Below, piece by piece: positions 1,073 to 63,597 of a DNA stretch of 64,000 nt. A program made the position numbers and the translations under genes. Within the stretch, counting starts at the first letter, position 1. Each line of letters starts with the position of its first letter. The stretch comes from Corynebacterium glyciniphilum AJ 3170 (lineage in GTDB: Bacteria > Actinomycetota > Actinomycetes > Mycobacteriales > Mycobacteriaceae): NCBI RefSeq assembly GCF_000626675.1, contig NZ_CP006842.1:2170001-2234000 (forward strand), in the 5' to 3' direction. The notes below the pieces were generated by a model, which did no database searches, was not told where the DNA came from, and saw only the letters and a program-made list of their open reading frames with translations.

Positions 1073-1148
1073 TGGTGCGCACTGACGGGTTCGAACCGCC
1101 GACCTGCTGGGTGTAAACCAGCTGCTCTTCCAGCTGAGCTAAATGCGC
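1073..1148 (-). tRNA. tRNA-Val (anticodon TAC)
   Basis: The minus strand folds as a full cloverleaf: acceptor GCGCATT pairing with AGTGCGC (one G-T), D arm GCTC..GAGC, anticodon stem GCTGG/CCAGC around loop TTTACAC, and T loop TTCGAAC. The anticodon TAC decodes GTA (Val). CCA is encoded at the 3' end (1073-1075). Confidence 0.95.
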
Positions 1149-7306: not shown

Positions 7307-7378
7307 CTCCTCCAGCTGGACTCGAACCAGCAACCCTTCGATTAACAGTCGAATGCTCTGCCATTGAGCTATGGAGGA
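7307..7378 (-). tRNA. tRNA-Asn (anticodon GTT)
   Basis: Cloverleaf on the minus strand: acceptor TCCTCCA/TGGAGGA, D arm GCTC..GAGC, anticodon arm TTCGA-CTGTTAA-TCGAA, T arm GCTGG-TTCGAGT-CCAGC, discriminator G. CCA is not encoded. Confidence 0.95.
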
Positions 7379-7585: not shown

Positions 7586-7659
7586 GGGGCTATAGCTCAG
7601 TTGGTTAGAGCCGCGGACTCATAATCCGCTGGTCGCGGGTTCAAGCCCCGCTGGCCCCA
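7586..7659 (+). tRNA. tRNA with CAT anticodon (elongator Met or Ile2)
   Basis: Cloverleaf with acceptor GGGGCTA/TGGCCCC, D arm GCTC..GAGC, anticodon arm GCGGA-CTCATAA-TCCGC and T arm GCGGG-TTCAAGC-CCCGC. The paired first base rules out initiator tRNA. The CAT anticodon may be elongator Met or lysidine-modified Ile2; the stem and variable-loop pattern GACTCATAATC..GGTCGC resembles known Ile2 species, but I leave both open. Confidence 0.92.
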
Positions 7660-23059: not shown

Positions 23060-24442
23060 CTAGCAGCCCGCGAGTCGTTCGGCGAGGTAGCCCTGCAGCT
23101 TATCCAGGCTGACCCGCTCCTGGGACATGGTGTCGCGCTCACGCACAGTGACCGCGTTGTCCTCCAGGGTGTCGAAGTCGACGGTGACGCAGAACGGCGT
23201 GCCGATCTCGTCCTGGCGACGGTACCGGCGACCGATGGCACCGGACACGTCGTAGTCGACATTCCAGAGACCGCGGAGCTCCTCGGCCACCTTCTCCGCA
23301 GTGGGAGTGAGAGTCTCCTTCTTCGACAGCGGCAGAACAGCCACCTTGACCGGTGCGAGACGACGGTCCAGACGCAGGACGGTGCGCTTGTCGACTCCAC
23401 CCTTGGTGTTGGGCGCCTCGTCTTCGAAGTACGCGTCCACCAGGAAGGCCATCATCGCGCGGCCGAGACCGGCGGCCGGCTCGATGCAGTACGGGATCCA
23501 CCGCTCGCCGGTCTCCTGGTCAAAGAAGCTGAGATCTTCGCCGGAGTGCTCAGCATGGGTCTTCAGGTCGTAGTCCGTACGGTTGGCGACGCCCTCGAGC
23601 TCGCCCCACTTCGAACCGGCGAAGTTGAAGGCGTACTCCACGTCCACGGTGCGCTTGGAGTAGTGGGAGAGCTTCTCCTGCGGGTGCTCATACAACCGCA
23701 GGTTCTCCGGATCGATACCGAGGTTGACGTACCAGTTGAAACGGTCGTCGATCCACGTCTGGTGCCATTCCTCGTCCTCGCCCGGCTTGACGAAGAACTC
23801 CATCTCCATCTGCTCGAACTCACGGGTGCGGAAGATGAAGTTACCCGGGGTGATCTCGTTACGGAAGGACTTTCCGGTGTTCGCGATGCCGAAGGGCGGC
23901 TTCTGACGGGCCGATCCCATCACATTCTTGAAGTTGATGAAAATACCCTGTGCGGTCTCCGGACGCAGATAGTGCAGGCCCTCCTTGTCATCCACCGGGC
24001 CAAGGTAGGTCTTCAGAAGACCGGAGAACTCGCGCGGCTCCGTCCACTTTCCGGGCTGGCCGGTCACCGGATCGTTGATGTCGGCGAGACCTTTCGGCGC
24101 CTCGTGACCGTGCTTCTCCTCGTACGCCTCCAGAAGGTGATCGGCACGGTACCGCTTGTGGGTGTACAGCGATTCCACCAGCGGATCCGTGAACACCTCG
24201 ACGTGACCGGACGCTTCCCAGACCTGCGTCGGCTGGATGATCGAGGTGTCCACACCCACGACGTCCTTACGGGAGGTGACCATGTGACGCCACCACTGGC
24301 GTTTGATGTTCTCCTTGAGCTCGACGCCCAGCGGACCGTAGTCCCAGGCGGAGCGCGTGCCGCCGTAAATTTCACCTGCAGGGAACACCAGTCCCCTGCG
24401 CTTGCAGAGGTTGACGACGGTCTCGATGTTACTTGCGGCCAT
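23060..24442 (-). CDS. glyS: Glycyl-tRNA synthetase (single-chain type)
   Basis: Charges tRNA-Gly. The 460-residue alpha2-type class II synthetase shows motif 2 ([20 protein letters not shown]) and motif 3 ([19 protein letters not shown]), plus a C-terminal anticodon-binding domain ([20 protein letters not shown]). AGGAG lies about 12 bases before the ATG. Upstream on the same strand is the 6C RNA and its terminator, 128 bases before the start codon; a TATCAT element between them may be the glyS promoter. No T-box was seen. Confidence 0.97.
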
Positions 24443-24569
24443 GGGCTCGGGGCACTCCTCGTTGACGGTGGGGTTGACGGTCGTTCAGACAATCACGCCC
24501 ATGATACCGGGACAACTACGGCGGGGCACCCCCGGGTCACGCACCCCGACCCGGCTCCTCAGAAAGCAT

Positions 24570-24697
24570 AAAAAAGGACCCGCGAAAGGGGGGGTTATCG
24601 CGGGTCCCGGCCACGCTGTCCTCCGAAGAGGATGGGGCCTTGTTCCCCGTTTGATGGGATGGACTTAGGGGGGGGACAAGCCATCCCTGGGGAACTG
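24570..24697 (-). ncRNA. 6C-type small RNA
   Basis: Actinobacterial small RNA defined by two hairpins whose loops carry six or more cytosines. On the minus strand, hairpin one pairs GGGATGG with CCATCCC (24656-24687) around a loop with eight C (24668-24675). Hairpin two pairs GGACCCGCGA with TCGCGGGTCC (24576-24608) around a loop with seven C (24588-24594) and is followed by six T, so it doubles as the terminator. A strong promoter lies just upstream. From the literature, 6C RNAs in mycobacteria and C. glutamicum affect cell-division and related mRNAs by pairing through the C-rich loops. Confidence 0.9.
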
Positions 24698-24702
24698 GCA
24701 CT

Positions 24703-24732
24703 AATTTACGGCGGCTCTGCCACCCCTGTCAA
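24703..24732 (-). promoter_or_regulatory. Promoter of the 6C RNA
   Basis: Minus strand TTGACA (24727-24732), 18-base spacer, TAAATT (24703-24708). The predicted start near 24697 gives a transcript of about 128 bases ending at the T-run. Confidence 0.8.
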
Positions 24733-24875
24733 GTCCGCCGATCCTACCTCGAATAAGCCACTCTCACCTGCGCATTCCGGGGCCCAGGAAGGGTTCCGGA
24801 AAACACCTTCCCGACCGACGTCCGAATGCCGTTCCGTTCCCTCCGCGCGCGCGAACGGTTAGGGTGGAGAGCACG

Positions 24876-25292
24876 ATGAACACTCCCCGGATCGGACAGC
24901 GAAACACCCGCCAGCGTGCGGCAGTGGTCGACACGCTCGAAGGGATGACCACCTTCGCCAGTGCGCAGGACATCCACGCCACCCTCAGCGAACGTGGCCA
25001 CAAGGTCGGTTTGACGACGGTGTACCGCACCCTCCAACAACTGAACACCCAGGGGATGATCGACACGCTGCAGGACGACAGCGGTGAAATGCTCTACCGG
25101 AGCTGCAGCTCCGTGCATCACCACCATCACCTGGTGTGCACGTCGTGCAGAAAAGCGGTGGAGATCGACGGAGGTCCGGTGGAACGGTGGGCCACGGATG
25201 TCGCCCGTCAGCACGGCTTCGTGATGACCGGACACACGGCCGACGTCTTCGGACTCTGCACCGACTGTGCCCGCAAGCAACGCCTAAACTGA
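24876..25292 (+). CDS. zur: Zinc uptake regulator, Fur family
   Basis: Zinc-responsive repressor of zinc-uptake and ribosomal-paralogue genes. The 138-residue protein has an N-terminal winged helix (RNTRQRAAVVDTLEGMTTFA; GLTTVYRTLQQLNTQGMID), the His-rich regulatory site SSVHHHHHLVC and two structural CxxC pairs (CTSC, CTDC). I choose ATG 24876, preceded by GGAGAG, over the upstream GTG. Assignment to Zur rather than Fur rests on the position beside glyS, as in C. glutamicum and M. tuberculosis. In those genomes a SmtB/Znr (ArsR-type) gene sits next to zur; none is present here. Confidence 0.88.
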   Translation: MNTPRIGQRNTRQRAAVVDTLEGMTTFASAQDIHATLSERGHKVGLTTVYRTLQQLNTQGMIDTLQDDSGEMLYRSCSSVHHHHHLVCTSCRKAVEIDGGPVERWATDVARQHGFVMTGHTADVFGLCTDCARKQRLN

Positions 25293-25311: not shown

Positions 25312-26460
25312 CTATGCTGCGGCAACGTCGAACAAACTTCCCAGGGCAAATGTCACGGCTGCCGCGCCGAAACCGATCGCCAGCTGTCGCAATGCCCGTT
25401 TCCAGGGAGACATCCCCGACAGCAGTCCCACCAAGGCACCGGTAACGAGAAGGACCACTCCCACCAGCACGCAGGACAGGACGATCGCCGGTAAGCCCAC
25501 CAACCCGAGTATCAACGGAATCACCGGGACCAGCGCACCGACCCCGAAACACAGAAAGCTCGAGACGGCCGCCGACATGCCGGAGCCACCGTCCTCGGCG
25601 GTCTCCGCAACCTCAGCATCCTCAGTGATGTCGCCCTCCGCGGCGGAACCTAATCCACCGGCGAGCTCAGGATCAGCGTCCAGGCCGTCAGTGGCATCCT
25701 TGATCTCCTTGAGCCTGGACAATTCGGCGAATACGTGCCGCGCTTTACGTCCGGCCGACTCCGGGTCCATCCCACGGGCCCGGTAGACCAGCTCGAGTTC
25801 ATTCCGGTCCACATCCAGCTTCGGCACCGCCGTGCTGGCATTCGGGTCCGGGGTCGATGCTTCCAGCAGTTCCTTCTGGCTCGTCACCGATACGTACTCG
25901 CCGGCAGCCATCGACAGCGCGCCAGACAGCAGGCCGGCGATACCGGCGGTCAGCATCGTCGCCTGCCCGGCGCCGGCACCGAACATCCCCAGTAGGAGAG
26001 CCAGGTTCGACACCAGTCCGTCGTTGGCACCGAAGATCGCTGCCCGGAAATCCCCGGACATCTTCGCTCTGCCCCGTGCCGCCAGTCCCCGGACGATCTC
26101 GGCGTGGATCGCCTCATCCGCCGCCATCTGTTCGGTAGCGTCCTTGTCGGACAAGTAGTGGTTGCGCGACTCCGCGGACTGAAGCAGTGCCAGAACGAAC
26201 ACCGACCCGAACCTACGCGCCATCCACGCCATCAGTCTGGTGTTCAGACCGGCCTTGCGCGGCAACCCGACCTCATCCCCCAGTCGTGCCCGCCAGTACT
26301 CCTCATGGCGGGACTCTGCTTCGGCGATTCCCAGCAGGATCTCGCGTTCCTCACCGGTGCGTTTACGGGCGAGCTCCCGGTACACCGCCCCTTCCGCCCG
26401 CTCATCAGCCAGGTAGCGCCGCCACCGGTTGAGTTGGCGACGGGTCGGTTCGTCGTTCAT
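25312..26460 (-). CDS. Ferritin-like/VIT1 fusion iron transporter (MbfA-like)
   Basis: A 382-residue fusion. The N-terminal rubrerythrin/ferritin-like domain (about 1-140) shows iron-ligand patterns [21 protein letters not shown] and [10 protein letters not shown]. The C-terminal VIT1/CCC1 domain has membrane segments including [55 protein letters not shown] and [19 protein letters not shown]. Proteins of this design export iron or manganese or store it across membranes; MbfA in Bradyrhizobium is an iron exporter. It overlaps uppS by 4 bases (ATGA) at the end of the long leftward operon. Direction of transport is inferred. Confidence 0.87.
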
Positions 26461-61812: not shown

Positions 61813-63597
61813 TCACGCCGGGGTGTAGACCGTCCGGGACCGGTCGAGTTCTTGTCCGGCAGGACGAACCCCGGGGTCATCCGCGAACGTCTGCCGGCTC
61901 GTCGTGTACGTGACCGGGGCTGACGGGCCGAGGACGTCGCCGTGGTACCAGTCCACCTGGGTCCGTGACGGGTCCACATCGACCACCATCATTCCGTGTC
62001 GGCTCAGGTCGACGTACTTGTACCAATGGTCCACATCCATGAGCAACCCTTCCCCCAGCCGCAGAGCCTCCCTGACCGCAGGTGCCGCGGCACTGGTCGG
62101 AACAATCGAATCGAAGGCGCTCGCAGCGGTCACCGACGGGACGATGAACTCCGCGGCCGCCACGGTCGTGTCCCGGCCCAGCCGATACTCTCCGGCCTGC
62201 GCGGGGATATCTGCAGCCCACGAGGAGTGGATGTCACCGGTGAGGAAGACCACGTTCATTCCACGACCGTGAGGCCCGGACCCCCTGTTCATGATGACGT
62301 CGATGATGCGCTGGCGTTCCACCATGTACCCGTCCCACTGGTCCGTATTCAGTGCAATTCCGTCCGGCGGCAGGCCGATCTTGTCGACCAACCAGTCATG
62401 CAACCGTGGATCCAGTGAGTGAGGCAAAGTCATCGGAGCGAACATCACCGAGTTCCCGACCAGTTGCCAGGTGGTCGTCGAGGTCGTCAGGACGCCCGCG
62501 AACCAGTCGAACTGGTTCTGTCCCATCATCGTGCGGCCGTCCGCGGCAGCGGTGGCCGGGGAGCTCTGCATGTCGCGGTAAGTGCGAAGGTCGGGGAGGA
62601 TGAGCTCTGCGAGCGTACCGTAGCGTAGGTGCCGGTAGAGATGACGTCCACCGTCCGTGCCGAACCCCTCTCCCGCACGAACCGGCATCCATTCGTAGTA
62701 GGCCTCGGTCGCAGCCTGCCTCACCGCCGCGTACTCCTGCGCCCCGCCGTAGTCGGAATCCCCGGTGGCACCGTCACGCCACGCATTGTCGAAAAACTCG
62801 TGGTCATCCCAGATGCAGATCATCGGCTTAGCGGCATGCAGGTCTGCGAGGTCAGGGTCTCGGTGGTAGTGCCCCTGTCGGATCCGGTAACCGACGAGTG
62901 TGCGGGTACGTTCGCGCGGTTCCACGGTCCGTACTGTTGTGCCGTAGGCCGCGCCGTATTCCCCGGACTCGTATTCATAGGTGTAGTCGCCGAGATGCAG
63001 GACGAACTCAACGTCGTCGCGGTCAGCAAGCTCACGGTAGGCACGGAAGTGTCCTGCCTCGTAGTTCGAACACGAACACACCCCGAAGCGGAGGTGGTCC
63101 GGTGCGGCGTCGTCCGCCGGCGTCGTCCGCGTTCGACCCGTGCGGGATACCTCACCTGCGGACGGACCGTCCACCACCGTGAACCGGTAATAGTAGGTGG
63201 TGGACGGGGCAAGTCCCGTGACATTGATTTTCACGGTGTGGTCGCGGTCCGCTTCGGTGGTCATTTCCCCAGCTGCGGTGGCTACGTCAAAGCTGGCGTC
63301 TGTGGACACCTCCCAGTACACACGGGTCGGATCCCCCGCACCGGAACCCGGCGTGGCCTGAGATACCGGCGTCACCCGGGTCCAGATGACGACGCTGTCG
63401 GGCCAGGGATCTCCGGAAGCGACGGAATGCAGGAAGGCTCTGCTACCAGGTGCCCCGCCATTGGCAGTGGCAGTCGCCGCGGACCACCGGGACATAGTAT
63501 CTCCGACAGCGAGCCCGGCACTGGCAACCACGGCACCGGTGAGGAAACGCCGTCTCGTCACGCCCGTCCCGACAGTCGCAGGTGGTGTCGTTGTCAT
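61813..63597 (-). CDS. phoD: Alkaline phosphatase D (PhoD), Tat-exported
   Basis: Secreted phosphodiesterase/phosphatase of about 594 residues that releases phosphate from organic esters. The twin-arginine signal TRRRFLTGAVVASAGLAV is at about residues 14-31. The PhoD pattern follows: FLHSVASGDPWPDSVVIWTR, RFGVCSCSNYEAGHFRAYRE, LHLGDYTYEY, CIWDDHEFFDNAWRDG and FLTGDIHSSWAADI. ATG 63597 is used in preference to an ATG five codons earlier. In C. glutamicum-type bacteria such enzymes are induced by phosphate starvation; a promoter of that kind was not identified with confidence. It is divergent from the BASS gene. Confidence 0.93.
   Translation of the reverse strand: MTTTPPATVGTGVTRRRFLTGAVVASAGLAVGDTMSRWSAATATANGGAPGSRAFLHSVASGDPWPDSVVIWTRVTPVSQATPGSGAGDPTRVYWEVSTDASFDVATAAGEMTTEADRDHTVKINVTGLAPSTTYYYRFTVVDGPSAGEVSRTGRTRTTPADDAAPDHLRFGVCSCSNYEAGHFRAYRELADRDDVEFVLHLGDYTYEYESGEYGAAYGTTVRTVEPRERTRTLVGYRIRQGHYHRDPDLADLHAAKPMICIWDDHEFFDNAWRDGATGDSDYGGAQEYAAVRQAATEAYYEWMPVRAGEGFGTDGGRHLYRHLRYGTLAELILPDLRTYRDMQSSPATAAADGRTMMGQNQFDWFAGVLTTSTTTWQLVGNSVMFAPMTLPHSLDPRLHDWLVDKIGLPPDGIALNTDQWDGYMVERQRIIDVIMNRGSGPHGRGMNVVFLTGDIHSSWAADIPAQAGEYRLGRDTTVAAAEFIVPSVTAASAFDSIVPTSAAAPAVREALRLGEGLLMDVDHWYKYVDLSRHGMMVVDVDPSRTQVDWYHGDVLGPSAPVTYTTSRQTFADDPGVRPAGQELDRSRTVYTPA

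Follow-up and report, generated by a model that had tools for sequence, protein, structure and literature searches.

The interval between a FUR-family regulatory gene and glyS in Corynebacterium glyciniphilum AJ 3170 holds what a preliminary description, made from the sequence, took to be the actinobacterial 6C RNA, which raises the question of what this RNA is, where it came from, and whether it acts in trans, on the adjacent glyS gene, or in connection with its regulatory neighbour. We analysed a window of 64,000 nucleotides around it (i.e., positions 2,170,001 to 2,234,000 of contig NZ_CP006842.1), in which the Rfam matches at cut-off are three tRNA genes only, at 1076-1148 (minus strand), 7307-7378 (minus) and 7586-7659 (plus). 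Everything claimed for 24570-24732 of the minus strand, namely TTGACA-N18-TAAATT, one hairpin with a C8 loop, another with a C7 loop, and a T-run, is present, and the locus reads as follows:

24727..24732, minus strand: -35 box TTGACA (window sequence and promoter scan).
24703..24708, minus strand: -10 box TAAATT, after an 18-nt spacer (window sequence and promoter scan).
24570..24696, minus strand: predicted small RNA of about 127 nt (covariance-model match and covariation).
24642..24695, minus strand: domain 1, a clamp helix and C-hairpin 1 (sequence, fold, covariation helices 1 and 2).
24695-24689 with 24648-24642, minus strand: the clamp helix, GUUCCCC pairing with GGGGAAC and enclosing C-hairpin 1.
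24687-24656, minus strand: C-hairpin 1, with its C8 loop at 24675-24668.
24609..24639, minus strand: domain 2, GGCCCC-A-UCCUC-UUCG-GAGGA-CA-G-C-G-U-GGCC, a bulged helix common to the 5' domain of Corynebacterium 6C.
24570..24608, minus strand: domain 3, the terminator hairpin GGGACCCGCGA..UCGCGGGUCC (sequence, fold, covariation helix 4), with its C7 loop at 24594-24588 and then T6 at 24575-24570.
24501..24506, minus strand: TATCAT, a -10-like box assigned to glyS, lying past the end of the small RNA (window sequence).
23060..24442, minus strand: glyS (glycyl-tRNA synthetase), a separate downstream gene (open reading frame and Pfam).
24864..25292, plus strand: FUR-family regulator, earlier named zur, the divergent neighbour (open reading frame and Pfam FUR domain).

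The promoter of this RNA, termed here the FUR/glyS RNA, is the sole sigma-70-like site that a promoter scan returned between 24000 and 25200 (one found versus 0.2 expected in shuffles), and the 5' end at 24696 is deduced from the position of its -10 box. All 25 orthologues have TTGACA or TTGACT as the -35 box, and by pattern matching the spacer measures 17-18 nt in 24 of them, with 6 nt between the -10 box and AGUUCC; the exception (L125) went unmatched by the pattern and has a spacer of 16 nt by eye. At the opposite end, a T-run follows the second C-hairpin in all 25 aligned sequences. The terminator scan does not list this terminator, whose loop of 12 nt compares with a tool range of 3-8, and the single terminator that it does list lies on the opposite strand. 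The claim that the RNA possesses its own promoter and terminator is borne out by the sequence, with the promoter kept across orthologues, and the FUR/glyS RNA looks like a free-standing unit.

A blastn search found the FUR/glyS RNA in 21 of 151 Corynebacterium genomes, themselves a sample of a larger group, and a covariance model built from 20 of those 21 genomes (R1) matched 25 of the 151 at E ≤ 0.001, 23 of them at E < 1e-15; these E-values, like those of the 6C model below, are rough, and searches of more than 40 genomes ran under the stricter filters of Infernal. The two weak matches, in G105 (E 2.1e-4) and G050 (E 5.5e-4), are real 6C loci. In the window, R1 matches 24566-24700 with 140.7 bits, and across the family it matches 8 of 301 genomes, all Corynebacterium (one of 31 genera), which added two carriers. 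Among 25 aligned sequences, 94.2% of cells form standard pairs versus 87.2% in shuffles, and both partners vary in 16 of 36 pairs (68 cells), counts that lean towards the proposed structure because the alignment was fitted to it. None of 500 shuffles scored as high on four of five measures and 12 of 500 did so on the fifth; when the pairing was slid out of register as a control, it fell to 45-61%. The clamp is the weakest helix (85.5% of cells paired), because seven to nine sequences have one additional A for which the alignment makes no room. Helix 2 is paired in 84.4% of cells, and each of its seven pairs changes on both sides in some sequence; the terminator helix is paired in 100% of cells, with both-side changes in 6 of 11 pairs. 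The GGCC helix, likewise 100% paired, is invariant in 8 of 11 pairs and so contributes no covariation. Each of the 25 orthologues contains exactly two runs of six or more C (runs of 7-10 C), which together with the covarying structure place the observation beyond chance: the FUR/glyS RNA is confirmed as a real, conserved structured RNA.

Its single-sequence fold has a free energy of -60.3 kcal/mol (z -4.1), equalled in stability by one of 200 shuffles. All 25 aligned sequences show three domains in the order C-domain-C (i.e., a C-hairpin, the GGCC domain, a second C-hairpin); the earlier account of two hairpins was right about the C-hairpins but omitted both the clamp helix and the bulged domain at 24609-24639. 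This middle domain (GGCCCC...GYGYGGCC), whose helix carries two single-nucleotide bulges, is the most conserved part of the RNA. When a slightly longer piece is folded, the minimum-free-energy structure gives up the GGCC helix for pairing with the flanks; the case for domain 2 is therefore its conservation and the consensus fold, as single-sequence folds do not all show it. The C-runs are exposed throughout, with a mean predicted unpaired probability of 0.996 versus 0.21 for other C across the 25 orthologues.

The preliminary description had proposed the Rfam 6C covariance model as a check and named the absence of a hit as one refuting outcome, which is the outcome obtained here. When the Rfam model (RF01066) was run, the window RNA scored 19.5 bits (E 2.7) against a gathering cut-off of 47, which excludes literal membership, and the model gave no match at E ≤ 0.001 in the whole genome. 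None of 15 further FUR/glyS RNA loci reached the cut-off, whereas three of four genuine 6C loci in the same run did, the exception being L252; over the 151 genomes, RF01066 matched 72 at E ≤ 0.001, of which 23 exceeded the cut-off. A 6C covariance model specific to Corynebacterium (R2) identified 6C in 90 of the 151 genomes at E ≤ 0.001 per genome, including none of the 23 FUR/glyS RNA carriers. Applied to the window RNA, R2 gave 22 bits (E 0.257) in the search of its own genome, where it ranked the FUR/glyS RNA first, and 22.8 bits over 501 bases. We also considered a second, divergent 6C elsewhere in this genome and found none: the runner-up R2 match, scoring hardly less than the FUR/glyS RNA at 20.9 bits, lies inside an apparent long open frame and looks coding. 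The RF01066 family has two loops of some six or more C and a T-run after the second hairpin, both present in the FUR/glyS RNA, and also adjacent C-hairpins, where 25 of 25 FUR/glyS RNAs have the GGCC domain in between. The FUR/glyS RNA is not a member of RF01066 as defined, and Rfam 15 does not list it. What stands of the 6C identity is the architecture and the 5' domain of Corynebacterium 6C; what does not is the Rfam score, the locus and the order of parts.

The relationship to 6C is nevertheless visible within the genus. Corynebacterium 6C (RF01066; cgb_03605 of C. glutamicum), like the FUR/glyS RNA, has two C-loop hairpins, the second being the terminator, and is of the same size class (about 100 nt by Northern in the available part of PMC4046766). 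It also opens with GGCCCC...GYGYGGCC carrying the same two single-nucleotide bulges, in the order domain-C-C, in 46 of 47 distinct loci (57 of 58 in an earlier count with duplicates); the exception, L255, reads GGUCCC...GACC, its outer pairing kept by compensating changes as judged by eye. Unlike the present RNA, it sits at a serB-like/ssd-like locus instead of beside the FUR gene and glyS, and it differs from the C-domain-C order, the clamp helix around the first C-hairpin, the consensus -35 box and the sub-cut-off Rfam score found here. As far as the available text of PMC4046766 goes, C. glutamicum 6C has a 27-nt 5' extension past the Rfam model that is seemingly conserved in Corynebacterium, and we take this extension to be the GGCC domain. 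The domain is absent from all 15 6C loci examined in other genera, including the mycobacterial B11/6C type, which has a 5' hairpin of other sequence. Elsewhere in the family, 6C loci outside Corynebacterium (L259-L273) have a different 5' hairpin, e.g., CACCUGGAC..GUCCAGG, ahead of the two C-hairpins and beyond the 75-position Rfam model.

An unrelated small RNA could instead have converged on two C-loops and a similar GGCC helix, giving 6C-like action without descent, an origin that we consider unlikely. It would accommodate the different locus and order, the low cross-score of 22 bits, the invariant GGCC helix with no covariation of its own, and the existence of C-loop small RNAs in unrelated bacteria: BjrC80, sX13 and ar7 combine C-rich loops with a terminator and match the window RNA sub-threshold, although at 19.9, 18.9 and 15.5 bits they come nowhere near the respective cut-offs of 80, 50 and 60, belong to other phyla by their family names, and show no common domain. 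Against convergence, the domain has its sequence, both bulges and spacing in common with Corynebacterium 6C (46 of 47 distinct loci) and with none of the 15 6C loci from other genera. A strict pattern for the GGCC domain matches 22 of 25 FUR/glyS RNAs versus 2 of 100,000 dinucleotide shuffles, and a loose pattern 25 of 25 versus 204 of 100,000. Because the pattern also matches many unrelated, apparently coding places elsewhere (one of its two matches in the own genome is such), it is by itself no proof of an RNA. There is, in addition, a bridging form: L252, a 6C by position and order, reads GGCCCCG-GUAUC-UUCG-GAUAC-GCUGUGUGGCC and so holds a UUCG-capped stem, as in the FUR/glyS RNA. The FUR/glyS model, for its part, picks up the two real 6C loci mentioned above (E 2e-4 and 6e-4). 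Derivation of the FUR/glyS RNA from 6C is therefore, on these sequence comparisons, the probable origin.

The two RNAs do not overlap in distribution. Among the 151 Corynebacterium genomes, 23 carry the FUR/glyS RNA, 90 carry 6C, none carries both and 38 carry neither; the last figure is an upper bound, since at least one of them, L229, still has a degenerate stretch resembling 6C in the original place (GGCCCCUUAAUUUGUGUGGCC, with short C-runs), and five of the 38 (G074, G081, G091, G107 and G118) were classified by model searches only. Fisher's test gives P 4e-11 for this exclusivity when relatedness is ignored, yet the pattern amounts to one deep split and has the weight of about one event, without independent replicates. 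On a tree of the serB-like gene (109 rows; 49 of 58 6C loci had a long enough serB-like match, and the 39 distinct ones entered the tree), one side of a branch with 100/100 support holds 22 carriers together with four genomes that have neither RNA; G024 is missing, several deep forks are unsettled and long branches are flagged. Twelve regions of the carrier side retain the neighbour at the serB-like locus, most with an ssd-like match, and R2 found no 6C at that locus in any of them or in the own genome.

The four carrier-lineage genomes with neither RNA (L301-L304) have a short interval between the FUR gene and glyS, with no pair of C-runs and no domain; the RNA seems to have been lost by deletion, and these four members show the FUR/glyS RNA to be dispensable. 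On the 6C side, 29 genomes with neither RNA (L202-L230) keep the locus, with 6C gone or degenerate, and many 6C-side Corynebacterium genomes seem to have lost 6C without replacement. Because R2 finds 6C widely in the family (173 of 301 genomes, 21 of 31 genera), 6C is the older arrangement and the FUR/glyS RNA most likely the derived one, a direction read from this distribution.

The reading that we favour, and hold to be somewhat better than an even bet, is that the FUR/glyS RNA is a relocated, domain-permuted small RNA of the 6C type whose C-loops act in trans by covering G-rich ribosome-binding sites. It would be transcribed from its own near-consensus promoter and end at its own terminator, giving about 127 nt; two rigid hairpins would display the unpaired C-runs, which may base-pair with G-rich tracts in the ribosome-binding sites of a number of mRNAs and prevent their translation, and the middle GGCCCC...GYGYGGCC domain would probably contribute stability or dock a partner protein. 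In one deep Corynebacterium lineage, the FUR/glyS RNA may stand in for 6C. The nearest functional parallel is the mycobacterial B11/6C small RNA, whose two C-rich loops pair with G-rich ribosome-binding sites: in the accessible portion of the study of M. abscessus B11, either C-loop suffices to repress a reporter with a G6 5' UTR, and repression is lost only with both C-loops mutated (PMC10470900). By analogy, the FUR/glyS RNA should mask G-rich ribosome-binding sites, and it likely works like 6C; direct support for the predicted masking consists of the exposed, conserved C-runs. A crude count of G7 tracts 3-9 nt before ATG in the own genome gave four, versus three in a reversed control. Just one of these sits ahead of a long open frame, of 472 aa (L310; G000:C1:938920-938936, minus strand), where an 8-G run lies a few bases before the ATG as a candidate C-loop target; the first 80 residues of this frame have no Pfam match.

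This lack of enrichment would also suit a decoy for a protein that binds C-rich RNA (e.g., Rho or a cold-shock protein) in place of an antisense RNA. Rho binds C-rich RNA, and both the long unpaired C-runs and a conserved bulged helix of the protein-bound kind fit such a role. We regard it as improbable, as the 6C-type RNAs studied so far, within the scope of the available text of PMC10470900, pair with G tracts via their loops. As for when such RNAs are expressed, mitomycin C roughly doubles the level of 6C in C. glutamicum (as cited in the accessible part of PMC6789036), and the consulted portion of another study reports no change under its stresses (PMC4046766).

The trans-acting, 6C-type reading has a bolder version, which we put forward tentatively, as something that could well prove wrong: a natural permutation in which 6C was rebuilt at a new locus with its parts reordered and then displaced the original copy, the GGCC helix being a separable docking module, such that only the C-loops and this module matter, not their order. 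If true, it would make the GGCC helix a separable module and the order of parts irrelevant. Two natural arrangements of the same parts make it possible to ask which parts of 6C are needed and what the GGCC domain binds, and the comparison could show whether targets were kept after the move and reordering; other work connects 6C with the SOS response and with G-rich ribosome-binding sites. Under the Rfam model, genomes of the carrier lineage count as lacking 6C, yet they hold a conserved RNA of the same build, and the FUR/glyS RNA would supply Rfam with a missing family or clan member. The literature searched contains no mention of the FUR/glyS RNA, no work joining 6C RNA with jeikeium, and no paper joining small RNA, glyS, Corynebacterium and RNA-seq. 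The accessible part of a database paper gives 27 predicted small RNAs for C. jeikeium K411 (PMC8247434), one of which may be the FUR/glyS RNA.

A role as glyS leader or attenuator, with the terminator hairpin controlling read-through into the synthetase gene, is far less probable still. It draws on position: the glyS product has a class II tRNA-synthetase core and an anticodon domain (Pfam), its start at 24442 lies on the same strand 127 nt past the T-run, and glyS is found downstream in 22 of 25 loci. The distance, however, ranges from 109 to 787 nt, four loci keep the FUR/glyS RNA with glyS 528-787 nt away, and glyS was not found within 1.5 kb at two loci (L131 and L134), the contig ending at a third (L130). 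Moreover, a -10-like box of its own (TAGGAT or TATCAT) precedes glyS by no more than 160 nt at 16 of the 22 loci versus 3% in base shuffles, a count over all loci with glyS (an earlier hand count had given 12 of 13). This box and the variable or absent adjacency indicate that glyS most likely has its own transcription start. Read-through, which the preliminary description had raised, is made unlikely by the terminator, by the -10-like box and by the persistence of the RNA at loci with a distant glyS.

Least probable of all is a response to zinc, with the RNA regulated jointly with the divergent FUR-family gene: that gene is the neighbour in 25 of 25 loci, but it lies anywhere between 65 and 643 nt away, and a Zur-like palindrome, perhaps not the true Zur box of the genus, matches nothing near 24690-24870. 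Its sole match in the window lies at 63219. The zinc-regulator neighbour had been singled out as notable; its conservation holds, but we found nothing tying the RNA to zinc, and FUR-family membership is what Pfam supports for the gene previously called zur. One 6C-carrying genome (L308) has an ArsR-family frame between the FUR gene and glyS. Beside the FUR-family gene, the frame at 25312-26460 (minus strand) looks by eye like one for a membrane protein with a rubrerythrin-like N-terminal part; it may be VIT1/CCC1-like, and so a possible metal transporter next to a metal regulator.
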